Positions 45,588 to 55,112 are shown, counted from the stretch's first letter. The stretch is 64,000 nt of DNA from an uncultured Alphaproteobacteria bacterium (GCA_902537415.1 CACBBC010000001.1:1-64000); one strand, 5' to 3'. Notes: generated from the letters alone by a model not told the origin. Translations and numbers: made by a program.

Positions 45588-45903
45588 TTTTGTCACAGTA
45601 CTGCAAACACTATTTGACAACTTTTTTTTCCATGCCATACTTCTAGAACTCAAGGAAGCCATCCCTAAAATGTTTGCCAGTTGGGGGAGGGCTCTTGTGT
45701 CTTTATCACTAAGAAACAAGAATAATAAATGGGATGGTTTTCTTTGAGAAAAATGGGCCAACATTAGAGTGTTAGCCCAATTAGGGGAGGATAAATTCAC
45801 GCTGTGAATATCTTTACCCTACATAAAAACAAAGATAGTTCAAGCATAACGTGACGTTAACGTAAACAGAAACTGAACTCTTTGAATTAGGCTTACGATA
45901 AAA
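45588..45903. other. Intergenic region with a start-less reading frame
   Basis: These 316 nt hold no intact gene. On the plus strand from 45580 a frame of about 54 codons reads protein-like (TLFDNFFFHAILLELKEAIP and then WGRALVSLSLRN) but has no normal start codon. An imperfect hairpin (TGGGCcAACA / TGTTaGCCCA) lies at 45754-45779, and a 10-bp palindrome ACGTTAACGT at about 45853-45862. Confidence 0.35.
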
Positions 45904-46557
45904 TCAAATTGAGTGAAAAAATTTAGGTTGTATGATTTTAAATTTTTCTAAGTCTTTGCCTGTATCCAAGTCATCCTTAAGACTATCTACTGGAGCTATT
46001 ATTGATCTTATGGAAATCTTTTTTGCTTCCTTTTGATGTTCATAAAATGAATTTGGACCAAATTTAAAATTTAATCTTGTTGGCAGAGATAAGAACAAAG
46101 CGTTAGTACCAAAATCAGTCGAAGGACATATTACCATGGAGTCTTTTGATTTTTTTCCCATCTCCAAAATTTTTTTTATATCCTCAGTTTCCGGATCAAT
46201 TATATCACCTGGAAGTATAAGACTTGAATCATAAAGGTTTTCTGAAGACCAGCATATACCTTTGTTTACAGCTGAGTTTAATCCATTTAAGTTTTGTTCT
46301 TTAAGAACGTGTACATGAAAATTCTTTGATATTTTTTCTACCTCCTCACACGGGGTTATCACCAGTATATCGGAAAAGATAAGAGGAAATTGATTTTTCA
46401 ATGATTTAAGCTTTTTCAAAAGTTGCGTGAACAAAAGTTTAATAAGTTTTTCTCTCTTGTTTGGAGAAAGTAAATTGGATAACCGTGTTTTACCTTCGTT
46501 TAGTGATCTCATTGGAATTAAGATTGAGGTTTTACTTTTCTGATATCCTAAGTTCAT
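45904..46557 (-). CDS. cofC: 2-phospho-L-lactate (or PEP) guanylyltransferase, F420 synthesis
   Basis: CofC/FbiD activates 2-phospholactate or phosphoenolpyruvate with GTP, giving the side-chain donor for F420. The 217 residues have the nucleotidyltransferase start ILIPMRSLNEGKTRL (13-27), LILPGDI, and the signature DFGTNALFLS with FKFGPNSFYEHQ. It is the last gene of cofG-cofH-cofC, 16 nt after cofH. The GDI block fits the family metal site. Whether the donor is 2-phospholactate or PEP cannot be told. Confidence 0.9.
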   Translation of the reverse strand: MNLGYQKSKTSILIPMRSLNEGKTRLSNLLSPNKREKLIKLLFTQLLKKLKSLKNQFPLIFSDILVITPCEEVEKISKNFHVHVLKEQNLNGLNSAVNKGICWSSENLYDSSLILPGDIIDPETEDIKKILEMGKKSKDSMVICPSTDFGTNALFLSLPTRLNFKFGPNSFYEHQKEAKKISIRSIIAPVDSLKDDLDTGKDLEKFKIIQPKFFHSI

Positions 46558-46573
46558 GCAAATAGAGCCTCGA

Positions 46574-47812
46574 TCAATTTAAAAAACTAAGTGGGTTAGA
46601 CCCATTTCTTGATACTAATGGATCGTGACCAACTACTGTAACCGCTGGGTCATAGGTTTTAAGTTTTCTATATAACGTGTCTCTCTTAATTGGTATCTTT
46701 GAAGCTGACCTAATTATCTCAACCATTTCCGTCTCTGTAATTTCTTGCCCGTTTTTTGATCCCGCTGCTCGCGAAATACTTTCATTCATCAAAGTGCCAC
46801 CTAAGTCGTTAACGCCCATAGATAGTAGATTTCTTGCTTTCTCAGCTCCCAATTTCGTCCAAGACACCTGTATATTATCTATAAATCCATGCAAGACAAT
46901 TCGAGCAACAGCATGCATAAGCTCTATTTCATTATCAGTTGCACCTGCTCGTACAAGTGATGGGCTTTCCAGATACAGCGGTGAGTCATAATGGACAAAA
47001 GATAATGGAACAAATTCTGTAAAACCTCCAGTCTCAACTTGAATGCGACGAAGAATATCTAGATGCACAGCCCATTCTTTAGGAGAATCTATATGCCCGT
47101 ACATTATTGTAGCTGTAGATGGAATGCCTGAGAGGTGCGCAGTCTTAATGATTTCAATCCATTGATTGGCAGTTAACTTATTCTTTGTCAGCTTTTTTCG
47201 GATTTTTGTATCAAGAATTTCAGCTGCTGTACCTGGCATTGAGCCTAATCCACACTCTTTTAAATCTTCAAGAAAATCTGCATAGCTCATTCTACTCTTC
47301 TTTGCACCATACCAAATCTCAAAAGGTGAAAATGCATGAATATGCATTTTAGGCAGCACTTTCTTTATAGCAATTAGGATATCTCGATAATAAGTACCAG
47401 GAAGTTTTGGGTGAAGCCCCCCTTGTATGCAAACTTCAGTGGCTCCTCTTTTTGAAGCCTCCTTGGCTCTTCTCACTACTTCATCCAAATTCAACCATTC
47501 AGCACTGAGGTCGTTTGCTCTCTTTGCAAACCCACAGAATTTGCATCCCATGTAACATACATTGGTAAAATTAATGTTCCTATTAATTACAAAGGTGACG
47601 TTATTACCGTTTACCTTTTTTTGTAAAAAATCAGCAAAATTCAAAACAACTTGCTTATCTATGCCTTTTGTTAAGAACAGCTTCTCGATATCATTTAAAG
47701 AGGGTTGTTTGTTTTTTAGACAATTTTCCAATATTAAACGAGTCTCTATTGAAGCGTCTGAAAGAGTATCTTCAATACGCTTTGAGTGACAAATTATTTG
47801 CAAATCTTTCAT
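46574..47812 (-). CDS. cofH: FO synthase subunit 2, radical SAM transferase
   Basis: CofH joins a tyrosine-derived hydroxybenzyl radical to 5-amino-6-ribitylaminouracil, the first radical step of the deazaflavin FO. The 412 residues have the radical SAM cluster motif CYMGCKFC (Cx3Cx2C, near 87-94), the substrate region GGLHP and the CofH-type C-terminal half. It overlaps cofG by 4 nt (ATGA), so the two subunits are translationally coupled, as expected for the FO synthase pair. Confidence 0.95.
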   Translation of the reverse strand: MKDLQIICHSKRIEDTLSDASIETRLILENCLKNKQPSLNDIEKLFLTKGIDKQVVLNFADFLQKKVNGNNVTFVINRNINFTNVCYMGCKFCGFAKRANDLSAEWLNLDEVVRRAKEASKRGATEVCIQGGLHPKLPGTYYRDILIAIKKVLPKMHIHAFSPFEIWYGAKKSRMSYADFLEDLKECGLGSMPGTAAEILDTKIRKKLTKNKLTANQWIEIIKTAHLSGIPSTATIMYGHIDSPKEWAVHLDILRRIQVETGGFTEFVPLSFVHYDSPLYLESPSLVRAGATDNEIELMHAVARIVLHGFIDNIQVSWTKLGAEKARNLLSMGVNDLGGTLMNESISRAAGSKNGQEITETEMVEIIRSASKIPIKRDTLYRKLKTYDPAVTVVGHDPLVSRNGSNPLSFLN

Positions 47813-48987
47813 ATTGTTTCTAATTCCTTTAGCTTATTGTCAGGATGAAGGTAAGCAGAATGTTTTGACATATGGCTTCTAATAGTGGTGGATAAGAAAT
47901 TTTGTGTATTAAATTTTGAATAAACAGTAAGACGTTCCATTAGACGAAATCCTATTTCATTCATCATGGTCTCTAGCGAATTAATATTAGGCCAAGGGTG
48001 TTGAGGGTTGATAAAGTCTCGAGTAACTGGAGAAATCCCACCCCAATCATTTATTCCTGCATATACATACTCTAAGTGCTTTTTCTCTAAATTTGGGGGT
48101 GCTTGTATGCTGATGGTAGGATTTAAAATAACTCTGGCCAAAGCAATAGTTTGTAGCATTTCTTCTAATTTGGGCTCTGGGTGCTTTGACATTTGGATGT
48201 TAGGTTTCGTTTGGAAATTTTGGATAATTACCTCTTGAATATGTCCATACCTGTTATTGATTTTTTCTATCAATAGAAGAGCCTCAATCCTTTCTTCAAG
48301 GGTTTCCCCTATGCCTATAAGAATACCTGTGGTAAACGGCACCTGACAATAACCAGCCGAAATTAAAGTTCTTATTCTTTGGATTGGAACTTTATCGGGA
48401 CATGCATAATGAGGACCTCCTTTTTGGGTTAATCTTTTACTGGTGGTTTCAAGCATCATTCCCATTGATGCACATACATTTTTAAGCTTCACAATTTCAT
48501 ACTCGTTGAGTGTTCCTGCATTTACATGAGGCAAAAGTGATGTTTTTTCTATCACCAATTTACACATGTCAGTTAGATAGTCTGTCATTGCTTCATAGCC
48601 CAGAGCTTCTAGGGCACGCTTTGGTTTGGCATACCTTTTTTCAGGTTTTTCTCCTAAACTAAATAACAACTCCTTACACCCCTTGTTCTCTCCTTCGCGA
48701 GCAGATAACAGAACCTCTTGGGGGGACATTATTTTCGCATCTGGATCATCTGGATGTTTTACAAAAGTGCAGTAACTGCAAGTGTCTCTGCACATATTTG
48801 TTAAGGGGACAAAAATTTTTCTGGAATAACTAATTACATTACCCCAATGTTTGTCTCGCTTGCTCGATGCGGCATCTATAAGTTTTTCTAAAGAACCATT
48901 AAGGACCATATGTCCGTAGTAGGTAACTTCATCCTTATCTATTTTCCACAATTCTCTGTCGTTAAGATGAGTTGACAGACCCGTCAT
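47809..48987 (-). CDS. cofG: FO synthase subunit 1, radical SAM enzyme
   Basis: CofG closes the 7,8-didemethyl-8-hydroxy-5-deazariboflavin (FO) ring from the CofH product. The radical SAM motif is CRDTCSYC near residue 66 and the C-terminal LeuB-like ISPVTRDFINPQHPWPN is CofG-specific. I start at the ATG at 48987 (392 residues), which has GGGGGGA 4 nt upstream; the open frame starts four codons earlier at a TTG. Together cofG, cofH and cofC cover FO formation and side-chain activation; cofD and cofE are not in this window. Confidence 0.95.
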   Translation of the reverse strand: MTGLSTHLNDRELWKIDKDEVTYYGHMVLNGSLEKLIDAASSKRDKHWGNVISYSRKIFVPLTNMCRDTCSYCTFVKHPDDPDAKIMSPQEVLLSAREGENKGCKELLFSLGEKPEKRYAKPKRALEALGYEAMTDYLTDMCKLVIEKTSLLPHVNAGTLNEYEIVKLKNVCASMGMMLETTSKRLTQKGGPHYACPDKVPIQRIRTLISAGYCQVPFTTGILIGIGETLEERIEALLLIEKINNRYGHIQEVIIQNFQTKPNIQMSKHPEPKLEEMLQTIALARVILNPTISIQAPPNLEKKHLEYVYAGINDWGGISPVTRDFINPQHPWPNINSLETMMNEIGFRLMERLTVYSKFNTQNFLSTTIRSHMSKHSAYLHPDNKLKELETI

Positions 48988-49086
48988 TTTTCCCCCCAAA
49001 ATATAAACTAAATTATGACACGGTTGATCACAAAGGGCAATAATATAACAATTTACATCGATTAAACAAAAGTCTAAATTTAACCT

Positions 49087-49683
49087 TCAGTACAGCTCTT
49101 TTTTATACTGTGCTAATATCTTTTGCTCATCCTTGATTTCGCAATCAATACCGGTCTGATCCTCTATCATTTCAAAAAGTGTTGGTATTGGGCGTCTTCC
49201 AGGCCACTTTACCGGATCCCATAAGCCTCCTCTTAACATTGATTTTCCGCAGTGTAAGTGGGCTTGCGTAACTTTCACCCGCAGAACTGTTTTGGGAACA
49301 TTAGTTTTTAATCTGTGTCTTTCTCTAGTAACCATATCTTCACTTATTGAAGCTTTGCCCTGCACCCTCAATGTTTCGTTTACGCTGGGGATTAAAAACA
49401 AAAGAGAAATAAAATTATTTCTCACAATATTTAATAATCCATCTATGCGGTTGTTGCCCGGCCTATCTGGAATTTCCAAAATATGGTCACCTATAACCTT
49501 TACAAAACCATAGGGATCTCCCTTTGGCGATAGGTCAATGCTTTGATCATTTAGTGTTCCAATAATAACGAAGGATGAGTTCTCAATAAAACTTACACAG
49601 TGTTTATCTAATTTATCCAAAATTTTAGCTGCAGCTTTTTCTTTAGCCGGGCCGTAAATCTCTCTCAATCTTTTCTCATCCAT
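49087..49683 (-). CDS. PPOX/split-barrel flavoprotein, MSMEG_1061-like family
   Basis: A split beta-barrel protein of about 198 residues. It has SFVIIGTLNDQSIDLSPKGDP, DRPGNNRIDGLLNI (flavin phosphate contact) and HCGKSMLRGGLWDP, which fit the MSMEG_1061 family of FMN-dependent PPOX-type flavoproteins related to pyridoxamine phosphate oxidase and to F420-dependent oxidoreductases. It lies 100 nt upstream of cofG on the same strand, so use of the deazaflavin cofactor is a reasonable inference. The ATG at 49683 has GGTGG 5 nt upstream; the frame also opens at 49695. Confidence 0.82.
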   Translation of the reverse strand: MDEKRLREIYGPAKEKAAAKILDKLDKHCVSFIENSSFVIIGTLNDQSIDLSPKGDPYGFVKVIGDHILEIPDRPGNNRIDGLLNIVRNNFISLLFLIPSVNETLRVQGKASISEDMVTRERHRLKTNVPKTVLRVKVTQAHLHCGKSMLRGGLWDPVKWPGRRPIPTLFEMIEDQTGIDCEIKDEQKILAQYKKELY

Positions 49684-49786
49684 CACTTCCACCATTTTTT
49701 ATTAAATTTGTACAACATCTCTTTCACATCTAACGGTTAATTGGTAACAAACTAAAAATGCAAAATAATTTATATGAATTGTTTAG

Positions 49787-53569: not shown

Positions 53570-53902
53570 ATGTCAGATGTTTTCACTAGTGTAGTTTTGG
53601 TTACCTTTCCCTCAGAGGTCCAGTATGATAATTGGCTCATGAAATTTAGAACTTTCTATAACAAGAAAGCTATGGGGTTTCTTCGTGAAAATGGACAAAT
53701 TTCACAACGTGCTACTAGGGTCCAGGGTGATGATGTAATTAGAATAACAATTATATGGACGTACAGAGATTATGATGCATATGAAAAATGCCAAAAATTT
53801 CATAGTCAGTGGGGAAAAGTAGGAGGACAGTTTATTGCAAAAGCTTCTGGGTATAGGGGGTACGAAGTTTGGAGTGATTTAGACGTTACGTCTCCAGAAT
53901 AA
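53570..53902 (+). CDS. Small alpha/beta barrel-like protein
   Basis: A 110-residue protein: TSVVLVTFPSEVQYDNWLM resembles the N-termini of the small barrel genes at 37476 and 38271, followed by a helix and a strand pair (RITIIWTYRDYDAYEKC). It may belong to the same dimeric alpha/beta barrel group. It overlaps the convergent P450 gene by 17 nt. Function unknown. Confidence 0.5.
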   Translation: MSDVFTSVVLVTFPSEVQYDNWLMKFRTFYNKKAMGFLRENGQISQRATRVQGDDVIRITIIWTYRDYDAYEKCQKFHSQWGKVGGQFIAKASGYRGYEVWSDLDVTSPE

Positions 53903-55112
53903 TTGGAAGGCTTGCCAGCGATCTCATTGCATTATTTGGTTTCCAGGTGGCTACACCACTGGGCTTTATTATTTTTACAAGTTCTGTTAACGAGCTTACG
54001 AGAGCTGTTATCTCAGCTCTTGCCAAGGTTTGGCCTACACAATTGTGAACACCTACACCAAGAGCCAAGTGGCCTATAGTTCTTCGGGTAACGTCATATT
54101 TAAAGGGGTTTTCCCATACTTCAGGATCAGTATTTGCTGAGCCTAAAACACAAAGTATTTTTGTTCCCTCTTCTATAGTTACACCAGATACTTCCGTATC
54201 TATAGCAGATGTACGGCAAAAAGCCTTAACAGGGCTTGTTAATCGTAAAGATTCTTCTACTGCATTACCTACTAATAATTTATTATCTTTTACTAATTGA
54301 AACTGTTCTGGATTATCTGTAAAACACCATAATAAATTTCCAATTGCACTCACCGTGGTATCAATGCCTGCAGATAATAACGATCTCACTAACATTCCCG
54401 CTAACTGATCCTCTTCTGATTTTTCTGCAGTGCTACGATAAATATCTTTTGCAAGGCCATCTCCGTCAATATTTTCTTCAAGGCATTGCTTATTTATTTT
54501 TTCAAGGACGGAAAGTCCTTTAGCCATTGCATCTTTACGAAACTCGTTATCAGGCCCAAGGGCATTGAAAACCATAGCCCCGTAGCCTAACAACGTTTCC
54601 TTATCGATCTTTTTTAAGCCTACAGCTTCCGGGAATACCCTAGTTGGAAACATCTCAGCTAAATCAGAGATACCATCTATCTCTTTTTTTTGTAATAATT
54701 CACTTATCAATTTGTCAGCACTTTTTTTAAAAAAATCTTTAAGTTGAGATATTTTATTTGGTGACAGCGCTCGAGTTAGAAAACGCCTATTTTTTGTGTG
54801 CTCAGGCGGATCAACTTCTAATACCATAGATGGAGGTCTCCATGGCTTCTCCAGCTTGAAATCTTGGATTCCCACCCCTCTGGAAGAAACAAACCTTTTG
54901 TGGTCCGAGAAGACTTCCTTTGTTTCCTTATACCGCCCGCACGCTAGCATTTTATATTTATTAAGGTAGACAAAAGGCCCTCTTTCACGCAGGGCGCTAA
55001 AAAATGGTTCTGGATTTAGTAATACTTCCTTTGAATACGGATCAATATCCCATGCTGTAACATTTTGAGGAACCGCGATTGCTTTATGCCCTTGAAAAAG
55101 CTCCATGGACAA
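53886..55112 (-). CDS. Cytochrome P450 (first of two)
   Basis: A soluble 408-residue bacterial P450 monooxygenase. The I-helix oxygen-activation region is AGIDTTVSAIG (near 247), the K-helix ExxR is EESLR (near 290), and the haem ligand Cys358 lies in ALGVGVHNCVGQ, where the usual FGxG Phe is Leu. A redox partner is not adjacent. The substrate is unknown. Its C-terminus overlaps the small barrel gene; the next gene upstream is a DUF4177-like gene. Confidence 0.92.
   Translation of the reverse strand: MSMELFQGHKAIAVPQNVTAWDIDPYSKEVLLNPEPFFSALRERGPFVYLNKYKMLACGRYKETKEVFSDHKRFVSSRGVGIQDFKLEKPWRPPSMVLEVDPPEHTKNRRFLTRALSPNKISQLKDFFKKSADKLISELLQKKEIDGISDLAEMFPTRVFPEAVGLKKIDKETLLGYGAMVFNALGPDNEFRKDAMAKGLSVLEKINKQCLEENIDGDGLAKDIYRSTAEKSEEDQLAGMLVRSLLSAGIDTTVSAIGNLLWCFTDNPEQFQLVKDNKLLVGNAVEESLRLTSPVKAFCRTSAIDTEVSGVTIEEGTKILCVLGSANTDPEVWENPFKYDVTRRTIGHLALGVGVHNCVGQTLARAEITALVSSLTELVKIIKPSGVATWKPNNAMRSLASLPIILET

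Follow-up and report, generated by a model that had tools for sequence, protein, structure and literature searches.

F420 biosynthesis genes of an uncultured marine alphaproteobacterium and their probable coupling to pyrimidine catabolism in place of PreTA

A stretch of 64,000 nucleotides from an uncultured Alphaproteobacteria bacterium (GCA_902537415.1, CACBBC010000001.1:1-64000; the window) carries three genes for biosynthesis of the rare cofactor F420, namely cofG, cofH and cofC. The contig is 134,892 bases long, of which the window takes positions 1-64000, and it belongs to a genome of 1.61 Mb that is 65% complete. Why proteobacteria make F420 was described as an unanswered question in a 2021 review, according to which no F420-dependent enzyme had been studied experimentally in the newly recognised producers (PMC8498797). 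The part of greater interest falls outside the window: F420 is likely to serve in pyrimidine catabolism, in a substitute for the dihydropyrimidine dehydrogenase PreTA.

Gene identities were judged by NCBIfam equivalog cut-offs. All three window genes lie on the minus strand. cofG (47809..48999), for FO synthase subunit 1, starts at a TTG codon and encodes a radical S-adenosylmethionine (SAM) protein of 396 amino acids (TIGR03550, 454 bits, cut-off 213). cofH (46574..47812) encodes the radical SAM subunit 2, of 412 amino acids (TIGR03551, 484 bits, cut-off 374), in which PF19288 CofH_C was also matched. cofC (45904..46557) encodes the guanylyltransferase that activates the F420 linker, of 217 amino acids (TIGR03552, 129 bits, cut-off 105). 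An earlier note on this DNA had placed the three genes here, and the three open reading frames, all above their equivalog cut-offs, agree with it. The motifs that it named, CRDTCSYC in CofG and CYMGCKFC in CofH, were both seen in the translations, and the coordinates bear out the 4-nt overlap of cofG and cofH and the 16-nt gap between cofH and cofC. Assignment of the radical SAM genes to menaquinone synthesis (MqnC/E) was ruled out on scores, CofH reaching 323 bits against MqnC, for which the cut-off is 428.

The second half of the pathway was found elsewhere on the same contig. cofD (contig 89596-90537; 263 bits, cut-off 257), cofE (88721-89500; 226 bits, cut-off 181), npdG/Fno for NADPH:F420 reductase (88056-88724; 172 bits, cut-off 150) and a TIGR03842 (F420_CPS_4043) oxidoreductase of the LLM (luciferase-like monooxygenase) class (87039-88040; 504 bits, cut-off 295) form one operon in the same direction (contig 87039-90537), about 40 kb from cofGHC. 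cofE and fno overlap by 4 nt, and CofE is a stand-alone ligase of 259 amino acids without the FbiB C-terminal domain. The earlier note had reported cofD and cofE to be absent from the window, had proposed a search of the genome for them and for F420 oxidoreductases, and had named a genome lacking cofD as a refutation. Both genes do lie outside the window, at about 88.7-90.5 kb of the contig, and all the genes sought were found above their cut-offs, together with npdG/Fno. With cofC, cofD and cofE above equivalog cut-offs on one contig, the alphaproteobacterium carries a real F420 pathway. Since cofD, cofE, npdG/Fno and the TIGR03842 LLM share the contig with cofGHC, the predicted product is full F420, which would settle the choice between FO, F420-0 and F420 that the note had left. 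A second LLM oxidoreductase of the genome (C8:19440-20354), flanked by enoyl-CoA hydratase and aldehyde dehydrogenase genes, scored below all F420 LLM subfamily cut-offs shown.

The F420 genes themselves are of a known kind. The activities of CofG/H, CofC, CofD, CofE and Fno are shared with the proteobacterial pathways described previously, including that for the 3-phosphoglycerate (3PG)-derived F420 of Paraburkholderia rhizoxinica, although an FbiC fusion is given there and cofG and cofH are separate here (PMC8498797). Alignment of CofC to the 2-phospholactate (2PL), 3PG and phosphoenolpyruvate (PEP) enzymes of known structure was about equally weak for all. Its substrate loop reads GLNSAV, compared with LNEAL and LNTAI in the 2PL/PEP enzymes and GMANAC in the 3PG enzyme. 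The loop appears closer to that of the 2PL/PEP enzymes, and if specificity can be read from it the product might, with low confidence, be classical F420 and not 3PG-F420.

The operon stands directly before genes for pyrimidine breakdown. The order here is cofD-cofE-fno-LLM-EamA-carbamoylase-dihydropyrimidinase-ABC, and in related Rhodobacteraceae it is PreT-PreA-EamA-carbamoylase-dihydropyrimidinase-ABC. The dihydropyrimidinase scored 591 bits with TIGR02033 (cut-off 393) and the carbamoylase, a hydantoinase/carbamoylase-family amidase, 393 bits with TIGR01879 (cut-off 204). The ABC transporter is of the NMT1 type, with an NMT1/THI5-like binding protein. No Rfam family was found in the pyrimidine cluster. 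In one relative (L095) the genes run PreT, PreA, EamA, RutR-like regulator, carbamoylase, dihydropyrimidinase, ATPase, two permeases and binding protein. Among the first 16 PreA loci fetched from relatives, the same carbamoylase and/or dihydropyrimidinase was present in 15 and the same ABC transporter in 13, mostly in one order. The cluster thus resembles reductive pyrimidine catabolism (PreTA/PydA) in its transporter, dihydropyrimidinase and carbamoylase, in their order, and in the RutR-family regulators of several loci; it differs in having Fno and an F420-type LLM in place of PreT-PreA, with F420-making genes alongside.

A scheme can be proposed on this basis. CofH and CofG would form FO, CofC and CofD would attach a phospholactyl-type linker, and CofE would add glutamates. 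Fno would then pass electrons from NADPH to give F420H2, with which the LLM would reduce the 5,6 double bond of uracil or thymine; the adjoining dihydropyrimidinase would open the ring and the carbamoylase would release a beta-amino acid, ammonia and CO2. In this way Fno and the LLM would together stand in for PreTA, which is NAD(P)H-dependent. We put the probability of this replacement at roughly 0.7. Gene identities, pathway completeness, gene order, mutual exclusion and repeated interchange were read from sequence; the reaction of the LLM, its substrate, cofactor and direction are what we infer.

The distribution of the two enzymes was compared among 121 relatives. LLM was found above cut-off in 17 and PreA in 53, and no genome had both. 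Among the 71 dihydropyrimidinase carriers, 16 had LLM, 51 had PreA and four had neither. The exclusion gave a Fisher p of 1.5e-12, a value that ignores relatedness. Support independent of this test comes from LLM genomes of many families, 41 of 42 of which lacked PreA above cut-off (40 of 41 distinct genomes, G001 and G121 being apparently the same), and from repeated label changes on quick trees of the shared downstream genes. On the carbamoylase tree the label changes between LLM and PreA seven times, at least five of them forced by starred branches, and on the dihydropyrimidinase tree nine times, at least six of them forced. The trees of the ABC ATPase and the binding protein were less well supported, with at least two forced changes each. 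Because LLM and PreTA repeatedly swap places before the same downstream genes, it is most likely that these unrelated enzymes catalyse the same step.

Several observations weigh against the replacement of PreTA by the LLM. Fifteen of the 17 relatives with LLM belong to one genus, so that the Fisher test overstates the comparison, and four genomes have the dihydropyrimidinase with neither enzyme. PreA above cut-off was not found in the window's genome, which is 65% complete. Ruegeria atlantica (G130) carries both LLM and PreA. The survey of alternative enzymes covered PreA only. In four Chloroflexota LLM genomes CofE is present and CofH was undetected. Finally, the substrate of the LLM could be a related ring compound. 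Coupling of the F420 genes to pyrimidine catabolism in place of PreTA is nevertheless well supported by gene context.

The operon is widespread. Sixty LLM loci of public genomes were counted by hand; the order cofG-cofH-cofD-cofC-cofE-fno-LLM occurs in 31, and cofE, fno and LLM stand together in 44, several of the remaining loci ending at contig edges. Dihydropyrimidinase and/or carbamoylase lie within the fetched DNA of 42. The seven-gene operon is present in alphaproteobacteria (SAR116, Pseudovibrio, Cohaesibacter and Rhodobacteraceae) and in gammaproteobacteria (Vibrio, Marinomonas, Marinobacterium and Alteromonas), and Paracoccus alcaliphilus and Leisingera have the F420 operon on plasmids, an occurrence consistent with horizontal spread.

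Additional genes beside these loci point in the same direction. The F420 operon of the Leisingera plasmid is divergent from genes for an NCS1 nucleobase symporter, dihydropyrimidinase, carbamoylase, AptA-type aminotransferase and NAD(P) transhydrogenase, and its LLM is followed by a RutR-family regulator. NCS1 symporters occur in the LLM loci of Marinomonas, Vibrio and Marinobacterium, and RutR-family regulators in Marinomonas and a Pseudomonadales locus; the Pseudovibrio regulator shares their Pfam domains. The matches fall below the RutR equivalog cut-offs and are named RutR-family only for that reason. The Alteromonas locus has AptA and a methylmalonate-semialdehyde-type dehydrogenase. The symporters, the regulators and the AptA/semialdehyde dehydrogenase fit uracil/thymine breakdown, and the transhydrogenase would suit the NADPH demand of Fno.

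Somewhat less probable than the enzymatic replacement itself, but still favoured, is the wider proposal that a mobile operon provides its own F420 and, with it, an F420H2-dependent uracil/thymine reductase, that this reductase has been repeatedly exchanged with PreTA in marine alpha- and gammaproteobacteria, and that this would be the main reason for their F420. The new part would be the coupling to pyrimidine catabolism. No link between F420 and pyrimidine reduction, TIGR03842 or CPS_4043 was found in the library searched, which mostly excludes subscription papers and does not prove novelty. The finding offers a specific enzyme, substrate and pathway with which to test why proteobacteria make F420. 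If true, nucleobase catabolism in open-ocean bacteria would have an additional, F420-dependent route, and TIGR03842, a family so far named but not characterised, would receive a function.

Within the window's own clade the F420 genes are divided, cofGHC being 36-48 kb from the others wherever both share a contig. Twelve other marine alphaproteobacterial genomes (L011-L022), the majority bearing sample names in single-cell style, have an LLM 97-100% identical to this one. Contamination or a binning artefact was ruled out because many separate genomes of this clade share the cluster. Of 22 genomes of the window's genus, 15 have LLM above cut-off and 18 have a CofH match, about as expected from completeness if every genome had both genes. 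The seven genomes without LLM are 62-77% complete, five of them retaining cofH, and on account of this incompleteness presence or absence within the genus was left out as evidence. Two members of the genus (G009 and G021) have all seven genes of the operon together. On the CofH tree the window-type proteins form a separate clade within stand-alone CofH, away from FbiC-type fusions (the fusion label of L132 comes from a crude rule, its record annotating two genes) and apart from the contiguous-operon CofH of G009. The separation of cofGHC may have arisen by operon splitting or by gain of another cofGHC. In one single-cell genome (L139 / G021) CofH is split in two frames, probably by a sequencing error. 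In other alphaproteobacteria cofG and cofH form an FbiC-type fusion within a cof cluster of different gene order (L074-type, L050, L052 and L093 loci), which in L050 and L052 is divergent from a TIGR03842 LLM.

Among other explanations, the one that survives best, though unlikely, is that the LLM is F420H2-dependent and serves the same route with another ring substrate, such as hydantoin, hydroxymethylpyrimidine or a modified base. TIGR02033 dihydropyrimidinases open hydantoins too, and the cluster's binding protein belongs to the NMT1/THI5-like Pfam family, in which binding of thiamine-type pyrimidines is known. In relatives, however, PreTA is accompanied by the same binding protein, dihydropyrimidinase and carbamoylase, and the symporters, regulators and aminotransferase/dehydrogenase genes described above match uracil/thymine breakdown. 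A general redox or stress role of the F420 genes, which would only hitch-hike beside the pyrimidine genes, with an LLM that charges F420 or does something unrelated, is quite improbable. The unsolved purpose of F420 in alphaproteobacteria (PMC8498797) and the second LLM of the genome would leave room for it; against it stand the exact replacement of PreTA within a conserved gene order, the mutual exclusion of the two enzymes, their repeated interchange and the linkage seen in distant lineages, and Fno is already there to charge F420.

The LLM protein was compared with enzymes of known structure. Its predicted structure (mean pLDDT 84.9) is nearest to Mer, the F420-dependent methylene-tetrahydromethanopterin reductase, with bound F420 (TM 0.82), and Mer was also the first match in a sequence profile search. 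The structures nearest the model are F420 enzymes, FMN monooxygenases scoring lower. The catalytic acid of Mer is Glu6, and its pterin site is lined by Asp96 and residue 178 (PMC11094777). Asp97, which corresponds to Mer Asp96, and Gln173, aligned to Mer 178, are invariant in all 42 LLMs, whereas position 6 is Cys in 26 and Thr in 16. With Glu6 replaced in all 42 and a Mer score of 116 bits against a cut-off of 349, identity with Mer was ruled out; so was Cys6 as catalytic acid, given Thr in 16 of the 42. That the LLM may retain the residues facing a pyrimidine-like ring is suggestive only.

Use of FMN in place of F420, for instance in a RutA-like oxygenase, is very unlikely. LLM enzymes take either cofactor, and the Chloroflexota carriers with undetected CofH would agree with it; but in the proteobacterial operon LLM always adjoins fno and cofE, CofH was found in every tested proteobacterial LLM genome (one match partial and frameshifted), and the nearest structures are those of F420 enzymes. 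Least probable of all is that the LLM acts as F420-dependent yanthine reductase in the reductive breakdown of purines (uric acid), as suggested in 2025 for an LLM-family protein in place of a Pyd-type ring reductase beside hydantoinase in Chloroflexota uricolytic clusters (PMC12507026): the enzyme class and hydantoinase-type partner are the same and the Chloroflexota LLMs (53-60% identity) adjoin a dihydropyrimidinase homologue, but SsnA, which marks that purine pathway, is above cut-off in 4/4 Chloroflexota LLM genomes and 0/37 proteobacterial ones. In three Chloroflexota genomes (G151, G152, which holds L066, and G161), where CofH was not found at E 1e-60, the genes for a CofE-type ligase and SsnA are about 1 kb apart.

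Other features surround cofGHC. A terminator-like hairpin of 10 pairs followed by a T run lies 3' of cofC (45754..45779, minus strand) and may possibly mark the operon end, the count of such sites in the region being no higher than in shuffles. The earlier note had pointed to an MSMEG_1061-type flavoprotein just upstream of cofG. Such a PPOX-type FMN flavoprotein is present (49087..49695, minus strand; TIGR04025, 210 bits, cut-off 170), 87 nt from cofG, but it is not a conserved partner: in three relatives the distance is about 6 kb with intervening genes, and the gene was not found in the other cof operons among the LLM/cof loci compared. A place in the pathway, or the part of a missing dehydro-F420-0 reductase, was ruled out on these grounds, and the flavoprotein is probably a loose neighbour outside the F420 pathway. 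One subclade of the window's genus has, divergent from cofG, genes for a second PPOX-fold protein, an FAD monooxygenase and a DUF3500 protein (L134 12541-15432, L144 4878-7769), which are possible further F420-linked genes. A cytochrome P450 gene lies near the cof genes (window 53886-55112), with another P450-like match a few kb on.

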